Of a stretch of DNA of 64,000 nucleotides, positions 208 through 16,998 are shown one piece after another. Numbering within the stretch: the first letter of the stretch is position 1; each line of letters begins with the position of its first letter. A model generated the notes under the pieces. The model made no database searches. It was not told the origin of the DNA and was given only the letters and a program-made list of their open reading frames with translations. Origin of the DNA: Pseudomonadota bacterium (GTDB taxonomy: Bacteria > Desulfobacterota > Desulfobulbia > Desulfobulbales > JAGXFP01); the NCBI GenBank assembly GCA_018814305.1, contig JAHJAA010000018.1, positions 1 to 64,000 on the forward strand, given 5' to 3'. Both the position numbers and the translations under genes were made by a program.

Positions 208-1722
208 ATGCTCTTACTCTTCCCCCCAGTGGCTAAACCATGTGAACCGCCGGCCGGGGTTGCTCGTCTGGCCGGGGTTTTACGGGGGAATGGGCAGCGC
301 TGTACGGTTATTGACTTAAACCTTGCCGGTCTGGACTTTCTGCTGAATCTGCCGGTTGATGCCTCCGATACCTGGAGCCGTCGGGCCGTTAAAAACAGTG
401 CCGACAACCTGGCCTCATTCCGGGGACCGGAACTCTATATCAATCGGGATCGCTACGGCCGGGCGGTGGCGGATCTGAACCGGGTGTTAGCGCTGGTGGG
501 TGATCCGACCCGGGAGATCAGCCTGGCCAATTACACAGATTCTGAACTCTCCCCCCATCAGAGCGTCGATTTGATCCGGGCTTTCAATAATCCTGAAGAG
601 AATATTTTTTTTCCCCTGTTCCGCGATCAACTTACCGGAGAGCTCACCGAAAACAATTATGCTCTGATCGGTATCTCCCTGAATTATCTCAGTCAGGCCC
701 AGGTCGCCTTTGCCCTGGCAGGGTTTATCAAAAAAATCGCCCCGGATCTAAAGATTGTCATGGGCGGTGGTCTGGTCACCTCCTGGCTCAGCCGCCCTGA
801 TTGGTCAAATCCCTTTGGGGAGATTATCGACCAAATGGTGGCGGGTGCCGGAGAGCCCTATCTCTTAAACGAGGCCGGGATCCCAGCGGGATCCTGCAAT
901 CATCCCCCCGATTACACCGATCTTGCCTCACTCCCCTACCTGGCCCCGGGCCTGATCCTGCCCTATGCCGCTTCCACCGGCTGCTATTGGAATCGCTGCC
1001 GTTTCTGCCCCGAACAGGCGGAACAAAACCCCTATCACCCCATCCCGACCTCTCAGGTCTTAGGTGATCTTGACCTTCTCTGCCGCAAACACCGTCCTAT
1101 CTTGATTCATTTTCTGGATAATGCCGTGAGTCCGGCCTTGATGCGGGGGTTGATTGAACATCCACTGGGTGTGGATTGGTATGGCTTTGCCAGGGTGAGC
1201 CGTGAACTGATCGATCCGGCCTTCTGCGCCGACCTGGCCCGCTCCGGCTGCCGGATGTTAAAATTGGGGATTGAGTCAGGGAACCAGCAGGTGCTTGACC
1301 GGATGGATAAGGGTATCGATCTGGCCCAGGTGGCCCAGGCCCTATCTTCACTCCACCAGGCCGGGATCGCCACCTATGTGTACCTGCTGTTCGGTACCCC
1401 CCATGAGACCCTGGTCGAAGCTCGCGAGACCATGGCCTTCACCGTCCGTCATCATCGAACAATAACCTACCTCAACCTGGCCATCTTCAATCTTCCCCTG
1501 GGCAGCCCTGAAGCAGAAGAACTTGAGATCGACGGACTTTTGGCCGGAGATCTTTCCCTCTACGCCAACTTCATCCATCCCAAGGGCTGGAACCGAGCCG
1601 ACGTTCGCCACTTTCTCGATCGAGAATTCAAACGACAACCGGAGATCGCCACCATCCTCCAACGCGACCCGCCTCTCTTCACCTCAAATCACGCCCCCTT
1701 TTTTCTAAAAACACTATCCTGA
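208..1722 (+). CDS. B12-binding-type radical SAM protein
   Basis: Protein of 504 aa with an N-terminal segment resembling the cobalamin-binding-like domain of B12 radical SAM enzymes (LLLFPPVAKPCEPPAGVARL... near residues 2-25, a GGG turn near 193). A radical SAM core follows, with the cluster motif GCYWNRCRFC near residues 260-270. The cysteine spacing is CX4CX2C rather than the canonical CX3CX2C; CYWxxCxFC variants occur in this superfamily. Downstream 'KLGIESGNQQVLDRMDKG' is the usual SAM-barrel glycine/GIES motif. The substrate cannot be told from sequence, and no precursor peptide or biosynthetic partner is adjacent. It stands alone, convergent with the FecR-domain gene. The start is the first ATG in frame; no strong ribosome site is visible. 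Confidence 0.85.
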   Translation: MLLLFPPVAKPCEPPAGVARLAGVLRGNGQRCTVIDLNLAGLDFLLNLPVDASDTWSRRAVKNSADNLASFRGPELYINRDRYGRAVADLNRVLALVGDPTREISLANYTDSELSPHQSVDLIRAFNNPEENIFFPLFRDQLTGELTENNYALIGISLNYLSQAQVAFALAGFIKKIAPDLKIVMGGGLVTSWLSRPDWSNPFGEIIDQMVAGAGEPYLLNEAGIPAGSCNHPPDYTDLASLPYLAPGLILPYAASTGCYWNRCRFCPEQAEQNPYHPIPTSQVLGDLDLLCRKHRPILIHFLDNAVSPALMRGLIEHPLGVDWYGFARVSRELIDPAFCADLARSGCRMLKLGIESGNQQVLDRMDKGIDLAQVAQALSSLHQAGIATYVYLLFGTPHETLVEARETMAFTVRHHRTITYLNLAIFNLPLGSPEAEELEIDGLLAGDLSLYANFIHPKGWNRADVRHFLDREFKRQPEIATILQRDPPLFTSNHAPFFLKTLS

Positions 1723-5577: not shown

Positions 5578-7050
5578 ATGCGCGCCCTTCTACACTATAT
5601 CGCCAGTATCATCATCGTCGGGTTCTACGGCGCTCAGGTTTGCCCTTTTCTAGAAAGTCTGACCCTGGGCCAATTGCTTCTCCCTCTGGCAACGGCCTTA
5701 GTCGTCGCCTTCCTGGCCCGTAAGTCGCTTCTGGAAAAATTTGTCGCCCGGTCTCCCTATCAGCACCAGACGACCCGGGTCTTCCGGCTCGAATTTTTGC
5801 TCTTCATCTTGATCGGGATCTTTTTGATGCTTTTTAACCGGATGGCGTATGGTTTTCCTGCCGGCAGCGGCCTGAAACTCGTCCTGGTCATGACCACTCT
5901 CGGCTTCTTTCTGGCCATTGACCTGGCCCTGGCCAAGGAACGCGAACTGACCAAACTTTTCCAACAACAGCATATCGATCTTGATCCGGAACGGGATTAT
6001 TTCCCCTTCCCCTCCAAACTGGCGATTTTTGCCGCAGCCTGTTCAGTCTTCGTGGTCGGAGTCGTTTTCCTGCTGATTAACAAGGACCTGGACTGGTTGG
6101 TCTCGGTGGGTGATGAAACCACCATTGGCGAGGCCCAACGAGCCATCCTGGTGGAAGTCAGTTTTGTCTTTGCGGTTATTCTGGGTCATATCCTGAATCT
6201 GATTCATTCATTTACCAGAAATCTCCATGAATTCTTTAACAATGAAAACTCCGTCCTGATCCGGGCGACCAGTGGATATCTGGATGGGGCTGTGCCGGTC
6301 AGTTCCAACGACGAGTTCGGGGTTATGGCCAAACATACCAACCTGATGATTACCGGGCTCAAAGAAAAGACCGAAGAACTGCAACGCACCAGGGACGTGA
6401 CCATCATGAGCCTCGCCTCCCTGGCAGAAACCCGCGACAACGAAACCGGGGCACACATTTTGAGAACCCAACGCTATGTCAAGGTACTGGCTGAAGGGTT
6501 GAAACAACACCCGGATTTTGCCCGGGATCTCTCCGCTGAAACCATCGATCTGCTCTTTAAATCCGCCCCGCTCCATGATATCGGCAAGGTTGGTATCCCC
6601 GATCATATTCTTTTGAAACCAGGAAAACTGACTGAAGATGAATTTACCATCATGAAAACCCATACCACTCAGGGGAAAGATGCCCTGCTGGTGGCGGAAA
6701 AAAGCCTGGGAGGAACCTCCTTTCTCCGGCTGGCCGGAGAAATTATTATTACCCATCATGAAAAATGGGACGGCAGTGGTTATCCCAATGGGTTGCGGGG
6801 TGATGAAATTCCTGCCTCGGGGCGGCTGATGGCCGTGGCAGATGTCTACGATGCCCTGATTTCAAAGCGGGTCTATAAACCGGCCTTCACCCATGATTCC
6901 GCCACAGAGATCATCTGCGCCGGACGGGGAACCCATTTCGACCCCAGAGTGGTAGATGCCTTTACCATAAAGGCCTCCGATTTCAAGAAAATCGCCCAAG
7001 AGTTTGCCGACAACAATACGGATGCGATTTCCGAGTCAACCTCAGACTGA
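5578..7050 (+). CDS. membrane-bound HD-GYP domain phosphodiesterase
   Basis: About 490 aa. There are several N-terminal membrane helices (residues about 5-130 and 150-210). A HAMP-like linker (about 225-275, 'NSVLIRATSGYLDGAVPVSSNDEFGVMAK') and a C-terminal HD-GYP domain (about 285-480) follow. Metal-binding and signature residues are visible: ETGAH, LHDIGKVGIPD, THHEKWDGSGYPNGLRG and DVYDAL. HD-GYP enzymes hydrolyse cyclic di-GMP. Activity is plausible because HD, GYP and the later H/D ligands are all present. GGGGAG lies 8 bases before ATG 5578, which fixes the start. It is followed immediately by a palindromic repeat element. Confidence 0.9.
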   Translation: MRALLHYIASIIIVGFYGAQVCPFLESLTLGQLLLPLATALVVAFLARKSLLEKFVARSPYQHQTTRVFRLEFLLFILIGIFLMLFNRMAYGFPAGSGLKLVLVMTTLGFFLAIDLALAKERELTKLFQQQHIDLDPERDYFPFPSKLAIFAAACSVFVVGVVFLLINKDLDWLVSVGDETTIGEAQRAILVEVSFVFAVILGHILNLIHSFTRNLHEFFNNENSVLIRATSGYLDGAVPVSSNDEFGVMAKHTNLMITGLKEKTEELQRTRDVTIMSLASLAETRDNETGAHILRTQRYVKVLAEGLKQHPDFARDLSAETIDLLFKSAPLHDIGKVGIPDHILLKPGKLTEDEFTIMKTHTTQGKDALLVAEKSLGGTSFLRLAGEIIITHHEKWDGSGYPNGLRGDEIPASGRLMAVADVYDALISKRVYKPAFTHDSATEIICAGRGTHFDPRVVDAFTIKASDFKKIAQEFADNNTDAISESTSD

Positions 7051-14920: not shown

Positions 14921-15035
14921 AAAAAAAGCAAAACCTTTACGGTTTTGCTTTTTCAAGTGGGATGAGCCTCTTTTTTTAAGATACGTTGCGGTAAGGCCGC
15001 CGTCTTTTTATTTTAATGTTAGACTCTCCCTCGTT
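14921..15035 (-). ncRNA. candidate small RNA, copy A
   Basis: A minus-strand transcription unit of about 115 nt with no ATG-started frame of note. Upstream is TTTACA-N17-TACGAT; the unit ends in a strong terminator (14923-14953). Inside are a GCGG-CCTTA-CCGC hairpin (about 14986-14998) and a conserved single-stranded stretch AGAGGCTCATCCCAC. Copy B keeps the promoter hexamers, spacing, hairpin and this stretch. The terminator arms differ between copies but still pair, which argues for selection on RNA structure. A poly-A length difference shifts any reading frame, which argues against a small protein. It has not been matched to a known RNA family. Confidence 0.5.
14923..14953. terminator. bidirectional Rho-independent terminator
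   Basis: AAAAAGCAAAACC (14923-14935) and GGTTTTGCTTTTT (14941-14953) form a 13-bp stem with a TTTAC loop, with T-runs on both strands. It can end the thioesterase transcript from the left and the candidate sRNA from the right. Confidence 0.85.
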
Positions 15036-15041
15036 AATTAA

Positions 15042-15070
15042 ATCGTATCACTATCATCTACCCATGTAAA
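15042..15070 (-). promoter_or_regulatory. sigma-70-type promoter of candidate sRNA copy A
   Basis: On the minus strand TTTACA (15065-15070) and TACGAT (15042-15047) are separated by exactly 17 bases. The same hexamers and spacing are conserved in copy B at 16970-16998, although the spacer sequence has drifted. Transcription would start near 15035. Confidence 0.55.
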
Positions 15071-15174
15071 GCCATCAAATGAAAAAAATGAAAAAATCCC
15101 CCGGAATATATTTCCTGGGCCTGGTGTAAAATAGCAAAGATTTTCTGTTGTAGAAACTACAACTTAAAAAAGCA

Positions 15175-15240
15175 AAGTGATGAGCTTTCTCAGGCTAATC
15201 GCTTAGTACGTCTGACTGGGCCGACGAAACTCGAACTCGT
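15175..15240 (-). pseudogene. decayed tRNA 3' end and tRNA terminator
   Basis: Read on the minus strand, a T-arm can still be drawn (ACGAG-TTCGAGT-TTCGT, 15224-15240), followed by an acceptor-like CGGCCCAG (15216-15223) and then a worn hairpin GCTAATCGCTT / AAGTGATGAGC (15194-15204 / 15175-15185). The order matches the intact tRNA-Asp and its terminator at 17242-17357. The 5' two-thirds of the tRNA is absent. This is best read as the remnant of a duplicated tRNA module; the original tRNA identity is lost. Confidence 0.45.
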
Positions 15241-15321
15241 GTCAGTCCATACATAATTGAGGCTTTTTGTATAAAGCGGGGCGGGAAAATGCCAAGTACA
15301 ACATTTGATAACTAAAAAAAA

Positions 15322-16038
15322 TCATCCCAATATTTTTTGTCCGATCATTCCAACAAGAAAACCCAAACTTGCACCAAGCGCAGGAAACCAACTTTTCGTC
15401 AACTTGGACATTGGTGCAATATCCTGAAATATCAAATAAAGTATCCCACCACTGGAAAACAGCATCATTGACGCGGTTAGTTTCGGCAGAGTACTCAGCA
15501 AATAATATCCTGATGTGGCAGAAATGACTCCTGAGAAACTCAACAAAAACAAGATAATCAAGCATTTCCTTGATGAATACCCACTGTTTCTCAAATCCAA
15601 ATATGAATTGAATGATTCAGGAAAGTTTTGAAGGCCAATAAAAATTGCCAATAACAATCCCAACTTGTTGTCTGTGGCAAATATTGCTCCTAATGCAATC
15701 GCTTCCGGAACAAAATCCATCAACATTGCTAATAGTTGAGAAATTGTTCCACCTTTTTTCTCTATAAATCTATCCAAATAAAAGAAAAGAATTGCACCTG
15801 TTAAAAATATTACTGCCATTGGAACAAGAGGCAATAAGCGCATCCCTTCTGGTACTAGAACGAATGCAACAGCAGCAACAATTATTCCACCTCCAAATGC
15901 AATTGAGGTATGAAGAATCTCGTCTTTTACAAATCCATCATGGAAATTACTTTCAAAATATTTAGAAAGCAATCCTCCCAAGAAAACAGTAACTCCTGAA
16001 AAAAATGAGTACATTATTATTTTAATTAAATCTTCCAT
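15322..16038 (-). CDS. ZIP-family metal transporter
   Basis: 238 aa, about eight membrane helices, the usual size for bacterial ZIP/GufA proteins, which carry Zn2+, Mn2+ or Fe2+ across the inner membrane. The metal-site helices are MDFVPEAIALGA (about residues 108-119) and GLQNFPESFNS (about 136-146). In typical ZIPs these read H(S/N).PEG.A.G and HN.PEG, so the His positions are Asp and Gln here, which may change metal preference. GGAGT before ATG 16038 supports the start. The gene is visibly AT-richer than its neighbours, suggesting acquisition. It lies downstream of the glyoxalase-fold gene on the same strand. Confidence 0.8.
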   Translation of the reverse strand: MEDLIKIIMYSFFSGVTVFLGGLLSKYFESNFHDGFVKDEILHTSIAFGGGIIVAAVAFVLVPEGMRLLPLVPMAVIFLTGAILFFYLDRFIEKKGGTISQLLAMLMDFVPEAIALGAIFATDNKLGLLLAIFIGLQNFPESFNSYLDLRNSGYSSRKCLIILFLLSFSGVISATSGYYLLSTLPKLTASMMLFSSGGILYLIFQDIAPMSKLTKSWFPALGASLGFLVGMIGQKILG

Positions 16039-16209
16039 GGATACTCCTTTCTTCCGACTTCGATCAAAATCAGGGTTTTTAGTGGCTACGTGGAAAACCT
16101 TCTCTATTCTCTTGTCTGGTCTTTTTTTTGATCGTTGTTTGGTTTGCGTCCCAGTTGATCGCTTATGAGATGATGGTTAAACTCGATGGTATTCCCCGCC
16201 CCCTACAAG

Positions 16210-16587
16210 CTATTTCTTTTGATTAAAAAGCCTTAGAAGGATACCTTCAGGTCCTTTGAAATCTCCTAAAGTAATACCGCCAACTCCCGCAGAAAAGGCA
16301 GTTGATAAAAGCTCCCCACCACGTTTCGAAATATCTCCAAGGTTTTCAGCTATATTATCAGACCAGAATGCAAGGTGGTGAAAACCAAGAGGAGTATCTC
16401 CCATAAACTTTTTTGGCATCAACTCAATAATGATTGTTTCTGATTTCAAGAATACATAACTATCTTCAAGCCGATTACCCTCTGGATAGGTTGCTTCTAC
16501 TTCCAGGTCTAACACCTTCGTATAGAACGCTACCGATGCGATGATGTCTTTTACGACAAAGGCAATTTTAATAGGTTTATTCAACAT
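16210..16587 (-). CDS. glyoxalase/VOC-fold protein
   Basis: About 125 aa starting MLNKPIKIAFVVKDI; AGGGAGA before ATG 16587 selects this start over 16605. It is a single vicinal-oxygen-chelate module: FVVKDIIASVAFYTKVLDL at the start, 'GFHHLAFWSDNIAENL' in the middle with the HH pair, and 'GPEGILLRLFNQKK' at the end with the usual late Glu region. Family members include glyoxalase I, methylmalonyl-CoA epimerase and resistance proteins; which reaction occurs here is not clear. AT-rich like the ZIP gene, and both lie between the two direct repeats. Confidence 0.75.
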   Translation of the reverse strand: MLNKPIKIAFVVKDIIASVAFYTKVLDLEVEATYPEGNRLEDSYVFLKSETIIIELMPKKFMGDTPLGFHHLAFWSDNIAENLGDISKRGGELLSTAFSAGVGGITLGDFKGPEGILLRLFNQKK

Positions 16588-16847
16588 TCCATTCTCCCTG
16601 TACACTTTAGCAATATACTTAAATTTGAAACAATGGATATGGATATCTCGGCTGCGATTCTTATTTTTGGGGAGAGGATTTCGTCTCCAGTTCCCTTCAA
16701 ATTTCGTGACCTCTTATACCTATACCGTTCAACTAACGGTTAACTCCATCAAAAACAGGAGAGGTCTCTCACCTCATGGTCATTGCTTCTCCACAGTAGA
16801 TGCAATAGCGACAGTCTCGATGCTACGCGCCATGCCTGGAGTACAAA
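16588..16847. other. intergenic region upstream of the glyoxalase gene
   Basis: No convincing gene. The stretch contains several short inverted motifs (AGAGGTCTCT near 16763-16772) and stop codons in all frames. It probably includes the promoter of the glyoxalase-ZIP pair, but no clear hexamers could be picked out. Confidence 0.35.
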
Positions 16848-16963
16848 CAAAAAAAAGCAGAACCATGATGGTTCCGCTTTTTCCAGTGGGATGAGCCTCT
16901 TTTTTTAAGATATGTTGCGGTAAGGCCGCCGTCTTTTATTTTAATGTTAGACTCTCCCTAGTT
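16848..16963 (-). ncRNA. candidate small RNA, copy B
   Basis: Minus-strand unit of about 115 nt, paralogous to the candidate at 14921-15035. It has the same promoter hexamers and spacing, the same GCGG-CCTTA-CCGC hairpin and AGAGGCTCATCCCAC stretch, and its own terminator. It lies upstream of the glyoxalase gene and downstream of the tRNA terminator. The terminator arms carry paired changes relative to copy A. No known RNA family was recognised. Confidence 0.5.
16852..16882 (-). terminator. Rho-independent terminator of candidate sRNA copy B
   Basis: GCAGAACC (16857-16864) pairs with GGTTCCGC (16870-16877) including one G-U pair, with a 5-base loop, extended by A5/T5 flanks. On the minus strand it is followed by a run of eight T residues. 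Confidence 0.8.
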
Positions 16964-16969
16964 AGTTAA

Positions 16970-16998
16970 ATCGTATCACCATCACCCACCCATGTAAA
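16970..16998 (-). promoter_or_regulatory. sigma-70-type promoter of candidate sRNA copy B
   Basis: Minus-strand TTTACA (16993-16998), 17-base spacer, TACGAT (16970-16975), identical in layout to the copy A promoter. Predicted start near 16963. Confidence 0.55.

Follow-up and report, generated by a model that had tools for sequence, protein, structure and literature searches.

Small regulatory RNAs that occur as several paralogous intergenic genes are well known from Vibrio, where the Qrr RNAs depend on sigma-54, end in an intrinsic terminator and need Hfq. Desulfotalea is a genus of Desulfobulbales, an order of sulfate reducers, sulfur disproportionaters and cable bacteria whose small RNA biology appears little explored; one full-text literature search that combined Desulfobulbaceae with terms for small RNAs found no paper. 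Pxr of myxobacteria is an example of a paralogous small RNA, apparently driven by sigma-54, in a lineage without Hfq (PMC5568312, PMC5684412). The Desulfotalea-1 motif, a candidate structured RNA listed under Proteobacteria, was judged not to be cis-regulatory and to be ambiguous as an RNA, and it is given no Rfam accession there (Weinberg et al. 2010, PMC2864571).

Our analysis of the window, by which we mean the whole 64,000-nucleotide stretch of DNA, suggests that two units within it (Table 1) are recent paralogues and that they belong to a so far undescribed family of small RNAs (~95-115 nt) that are structured, transcribed independently and present as paralogues, and that are predicted to act in trans without Hfq; taken jointly, we consider this explanation probable. 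The covariance models of Rfam 15, applied to the window at their gathering scores, find three tRNAs only and no family for the units, in keeping with the initial annotation, which had recognised no described family. The best sub-threshold match, to ctRNA_pT181 (RF00242) in copy a, reaches 31.7 bits (E 0.56) where the gathering score is 56; being far below gathering and not seen in four other members searched, it was treated as chance. We have filed the RNA as a new family, absent from Rfam 15, with the Desulfotalea-1 motif entering the comparison by description only.

Table 1. Positions of the predicted RNAs, their promoters and structural elements, and of the family copies with sigma-54-type promoters
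Feature	Position	Strand	Basis or remark
Copy a, predicted RNA, ~115 nt	14921..15035	-	start inferred from -10 box, end from terminator; BLAST, folding, model R1 123.9 bits
Copy a -35 box TTTACA	15065..15070	-	position shared across most of the family (TTTAC[AT])
Copy a extended -10 box (TGA)TACGAT, spacer 17	15042..15047	-	promoter scoring
Copy a P1 5' strand GGGAGAGUCU	15021..15030	-	folding, covarying helix
Copy a unpaired A-rich segment AACAUUAAAAUAAAAAG	15004..15020	-	alignment; kept in P2-less copies
Copy a P2 element ACGGCGGCCUUACCGCAACGU; ACG/CGU and GC/GC pairs, 3' bulge	14983..15003	-	nearly invariant sequence, little covariation
Copy a P1 3' strand AGGCUCAUCCC, one bulged A; 'exposed' segment of the initial annotation	14959..14969	-	folding, covariation
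Copy a intrinsic terminator	14921..14953	-	folding, covariation helix 3
Copy b, predicted RNA, ~114 nt	16850..16963	-	BLAST, folding, model R1 121.7 bits
Copy b -35 box TTTACA	16993..16998	-	BLAST alignment, promoter scoring
Copy b extended -10 box (TGA)TACGAT	16970..16975	-	promoter scoring
Copy b P1 5' strand GGGAGAGUCU	16949..16958	-	folding, covarying helix
Copy b P2 element ACGGCGGCCUUACCGCAACAU, one ACG/CGU stem pair broken	16912..16932	-	folding, alignment
Copy b P1 3' strand AGGCUCAUCCC	16888..16898	-	folding, covariation
Copy b intrinsic terminator	16850..16882	-	sequence, folding
Copies with sigma-54-type promoters	L067 (G057) 5982-6083; L069 (G009) 6007-6105; L070 (G009) 472-593; L062 (G037) 5754-5869; L134 (G037) 235-378		4 of 5 without P2

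The pair of paralogous minus-strand units that had been proposed is indeed present, with 91% identity between 15070-14921 and 16998-16850 (minus strand) from promoter through terminator. Used as a BLAST query against the genome that carries it, the 150-nt copy a unit (14921-15070) finds copy b at 16850-16998 (91%, E 1e-53) and, on another contig, a third copy (G000:C50:22280-22428; 90%, E 4e-52), making three in this genome; other genomes hold 2-3. The stretch said to be conserved between the units, AGAGGCTCATCCCAC, is identical in all three. Since the identity begins ~25 nt before the -35 box, extends as far as the terminator's T-run and is lost abruptly beyond it, the whole transcription unit was duplicated. 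Elsewhere, copies can stand in tandem in the same direction (L071 5818-6160, ~240 nt from start to start; L062 5345-5869, ~410 nt), resembling other sister small RNAs.

Could the units encode a peptide? The difference in poly-A length between the copies is real (5 versus 4 A), the longest frames opening with ATG, GTG or TTG inside the window copies have 12 and 5 codons, and a peptide product was rejected because no ORF is common to the family. The lack of a shared ORF, together with compensatory changes, bears out the earlier view that selection acts on RNA rather than on a peptide.

Some of these compensatory changes lie in a helix that the initial annotation did not describe. In the structure that we propose, a helix P1 encloses an A-rich loop, and in most copies a second element, P2, is nested in that loop. 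P1 (~10 bp) is present in all members, with a bulge of 1-2 bases on the 3' side in most; in the window GGGAGAGUCU pairs with AGGCUC(A)UCCC. Six pairs of P1 alone have changed on both sides (for example U-A/C-G/U-G at the third pair from the loop), and one copy in genome G037 (C14:235-378) carries GGGUUU/AAACC where others carry GGUCU/AGACC, a C-G to U-A exchange in an otherwise almost invariant pair. The 3' strand varies in sequence by family (CUCAUCCC, CUCCUCCC, CUACUCCC, CUUCACCCC, CUCUUUUCC), yet the helix persists. Taking all helices together, 91.4% of cells are paired, versus 42-51% when the partner is slid, and members fold with z of -3.5 to -6.9. Pairs changed on both sides number 17 versus 7.6 in shuffles, and such cells 63 versus 13.7; these shuffle counts are not probabilities, because the tool's control (a) ignores the relatedness of the sequences.

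Seen against this structure, CTCATCCC, which had been put forward as an exposed and natural site for pairing with mRNA, is the 3' strand of P1: it pairs with GGGAGAGTC in the best-supported helix, one with compensatory changes, and we rejected it as an exposed seed. The GCGG-CCTTA-CCGC hairpin occurs in the two window copies only; in the third copy the sequence is GCGGCATTAACGC, and in 15 of 26 members the fourth pair does not form. Of the two helices, this one is less certain. P2 follows the pattern ACGGC-RGCNNNAAC-GC-bulge-CGU; it is constrained in sequence, its pairs seldom vary and show little covariation, and base pairing there is plausible. The A-rich loop starts with UCUAACA and is retained even in copies that have lost P2, which makes it the strongest candidate for the main interaction surface of the RNA. 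Of the terminator arms, said to have changed together (GCAAAACC/GGTTTTGC versus GCGGAACC/GGTTCTGC, RNA strand), one change is a true compensation, A-U to G-C, while the other is only half a change, A-U to G-U.

Terminators require some care in this order. A terminator hairpin of almost constant sequence (GGCAGRGYCATTNANTTGRYYCTGCC, at most 2 mismatches) is found 34 times across 15 of 58 genomes from the order, with as many as 9 in a single genome (reversed control, 0), and terminators of this type (in G042, G053, G009, G033 and others) follow unrelated genes, some of them PEP-CTERM-like gene ends. Likeness of terminators alone is therefore weak evidence of family membership, and this is why P1 and a pattern scan that ignores the terminator matter.

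BLAST already matched relatives in other families of the order (58 relatives). The covariance-model search in relatives that had been suggested at the outset succeeded: model R1, whose seed was 8 sequences (alignment A2) from families f1, f9 and f15, finds strong loci in families not represented there, at 1e-18 in f5, 2e-14 in f3 and 6e-8 in f4, with compensatory changes. Model R2, built from 29 sequences (alignment A4) and applied with strict filters at E <= 1e-4, is positive in 21 of the order's 258 searched genomes (about one in twelve), belonging to seven families (f1, f3, f4, f5, f6, f9, f15); under the same strict-filter search the two large families f12 and f13 yield no convincing member, and the distribution is patchy. 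The P2-less model R3 adds one further convincing copy, in G037:C14. Weak R1 matches (L039-L047) and R3 matches in f13 (G042, G139) were discarded because they are terminators that follow other genes, in some cases PEP-CTERM-like gene ends. Judging by record titles, the order of the 258 searched genomes is Desulfobulbales, and most family sequences come from metagenome-assembled genomes.

Beyond the order, a phylum-wide model search (395 genomes, ~375 of them outside it) gives convincing matches in two genomes only, both of the same order; matches in five genomes outside it (L104-L108) were by eye terminator-like or otherwise unrelated. The pattern scan, which used only the P1 5' strand and P2 and covered ~85,000 species, yields 18 stretches, of which 12 are confirmed by the model, under the titles Desulfobulbaceae, Desulfurivibrionaceae, Desulfurivibrio, Ca. 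Desulfobia or just Delta-/Proteobacteria. Pattern matches in Clostridia, Bifidobacterium, Actibacterium, Faecousia, Oscillospiraceae and Planctomycetota were terminator-like or unsupported by the model. The searches thus describe a family apparently confined to Desulfobulbales.

The promoter reported for the window units, TTTACA-N17-TACGAT, occurs in all three copies of the genome as an extended -10 type (TGA TACGAT; 0.000-0.007 against shuffles). Most family copies have a sigma-70-type promoter, TTTAC[AT]-N16-18-[TGN]TA...T, in one fixed place, with the -10 box ending ~8-12 nt before GAGGG, although some of them, taken singly, score weakly (p as high as 0.37). A putative Fur box in GATGATAGTGATACGAT overlaps the -10 region and, judged by eye, is not kept in other families; it was dropped. 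Four copies (G057, G009a, G009b and G037b) instead carry near-consensus sigma-54 elements (TTGGCTCGTTTTTTGC, TTGGCATCTGTATTGC, TTGGCATATTGATTGC and ATGGCACAACGGTTGC, respectively), which score at least 14.2 of 15.4 and are matched by 0-1 of 1000 shuffles; in the background a score of at least 14 occurs in 2 of 3260 windows, one of which may itself be a family promoter. A fifth copy, G037c, has a weaker sigma-54-type promoter (12.7). All four P2-less copies (G057, G009a, G037b, G037c) have a sigma-54-type promoter, as does 1 of 26 other copies (Fisher p = 2e-4, for copies that are related and a grouping noticed before testing). We take the link between loss of P2 and sigma-54 promoters as a lead; it would be an apparent case of a single RNA scaffold under two sigma-factor classes.

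The units thus have what is expected of independent small RNAs, namely their own promoter, an intrinsic terminator, no ORF and a conserved RNA structure, and the original proposal, a pair of paralogous genes for small RNAs whose promoter and terminator are conserved, is supported, the promoter being held at a fixed place across families. As far as comparison of sequences can demonstrate it, start signal, helix and terminator are under selection at the RNA level across families. We infer further that the RNA would be made, be stable and act in trans, the last because there is no conserved downstream gene and orientation varies. Independence of Hfq is predicted because Hfq is found in 0 of 258 genomes of the order, by a search whose control was positive in 5 of 14 named genomes, and an Hfq-dependent base-pairing small RNA was rejected on the same ground.

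How might such an RNA work? P1 would close the 5' end and present two surfaces, the A-rich loop and the segment P2/AUACUU, for contact with mRNAs or with a protein; additional copies could raise dosage, or switching between sigma-70 and sigma-54 promoters could tie the same RNA to different signals. Pairing with mRNAs through unpaired segments of the loop is quite possible, binding of a protein we suggest more tentatively, and another trans function, or none, takes up what is left. It is a speculative and rather improbable extension that the RNA brings its own recognition elements (the A-rich loop on P1, and P2) for an RNA-binding protein that substitutes for Hfq, with sigma-70/sigma-54 rewiring and gain or loss of P2 giving two functional classes of paralogues. 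In an order in which Hfq is not detected, a conserved RNA gene with a defined start, helix and terminator gives a way into the question of which protein, if any, assists small RNAs there.

A special case of trans action, and one that overlaps with our preferred explanation, is that the loop and P2 bind CsrA or an RNA chaperone and sequester it, so that the RNA titrates or guides a protein. P2 is constrained in sequence and not just in pairing, as expected of a recognition element, the multiple copies fit, and GGA is found in nearly all members. However, P2 is missing from four copies, the GGA lies paired within P1 rather than in hairpin loops, and CsrA, present in 16 of 21 carriers, is missing from 5, including all three of genus g2 (some exceptions being incomplete genomes). 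A sponge of the CsrB/RsmZ type, which would have several GGA motifs in hairpin loops and CsrA in the genome, was rejected on the last two grounds, and titration in general we hold to be on the unlikely side.

If instead the units were cis-acting leaders, riboswitches or attenuators, P1 and P2 would form an aptamer and the terminator would control a downstream gene, which is very unlikely. A structured domain does lie directly 5' of an intrinsic terminator, and in G002, G012 and window copy b a same-strand gene follows 120-300 nt downstream. But downstream genes differ by lineage, the next gene is convergent at many loci (at copy a it is a thioesterase gene), and inspection showed no conserved alternative antiterminator; likeness between terminator and P1 arms, seen by eye in some members, is not seen in the window copies and was discounted. 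Among the ORFs around the loci no neighbour is general to the family and orientation varies, which argues against a riboswitch. Downstream of copy b come a gene of the glyoxalase fold and one for a ZIP transporter, both situated between the copies. A common target gene was also sought among neighbours and given up: a DsrE-like gene lies by the f15 and G006 copies, a PFK2-like gene near those of G001, G006 and G251, and an IscA-like gene upstream in f5, none being general. At L048 and L052 (f15) and L065 (f3) the RNA is divergent from a short gene, which is DsrE by Pfam in L065 and DsrE-like in appearance, without a Pfam match, in L048; a 6PF2K/histidine-phosphatase gene lies within 1 kb at L056, L057 and L065 (by Pfam in L057 and L065).

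The segment 15050-16850 of the window, bounded by the two RNA copies, is AT-rich, with a GC content of 0.35-0.39 versus 0.47-0.50 on both sides, and this stretch was possibly acquired, or moved by recombination between the copies. Alternatively, the units could be a non-coding repeat scattered through genomes, or a mobile element, with no function as RNA and alike only because of recent duplication; copies do lie in different contexts, the two in the window bound such a segment, and a recurrent terminator sequence exists in the order. Compensatory changes across seven families and a promoter at a fixed distance make this reading highly improbable, the family matches no plasmid, phage or viral contig, and neither terminal repeats nor a transposase gene were seen at the copies. 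Scarcely credible is a 6S-type promoter mimic that binds RNA polymerase, for although a closing helix, a wide open region and a hairpin at the apex give it a loose resemblance to the layout of 6S, this RNA is shorter, multi-copy, terminator-ended and sometimes without P2, the 6S model (RF00013) does not match the units, and a separate 6S RNA scores above gathering in 12 of 21 carriers, including the units' own genome, where it lies elsewhere (G000:C52:18520-18703).

How, then, does our family of predicted Hfq-independent trans regulators compare with the described systems? Desulfotalea-1, named for a genus of the same order, is compared with our RNA by its description. With Qrr our RNA shares paralogous intergenic genes, an intrinsic terminator and, in the copies with sigma-54-type promoters, probably transcription by sigma-54; Qrr is Hfq-dependent, whereas Hfq is absent from this order, and there is no Rfam family match here. 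Pxr as described differs in several respects: it folds into three successive stem-loops, whereas here P1 is nested around a loop with P2, followed by a terminator; it adjoins the response-regulator gene nla19, whereas here neighbours vary and none is conserved in the surrounding ORFs; and it is found in myxobacteria only, whereas our RNA belongs to another order and has sigma-70-type promoters in most copies, the window copies included, near-consensus sigma-54 promoters occurring in 4 of 29 copies and a weaker one in a fifth. We regard Pxr as an analogue rather than a demonstrated relative of the Desulfobulbales RNA, the likeness by description being that of a former deltaproteobacterial lineage without Hfq, an RNA of several stem-loops, and, in some genomes, paralogues of which certain ones lack a stem-loop, with sigma-54 promoters in Pxr and sigma-54-type promoters in our P2-less copies (PMC5568312, PMC5684412).
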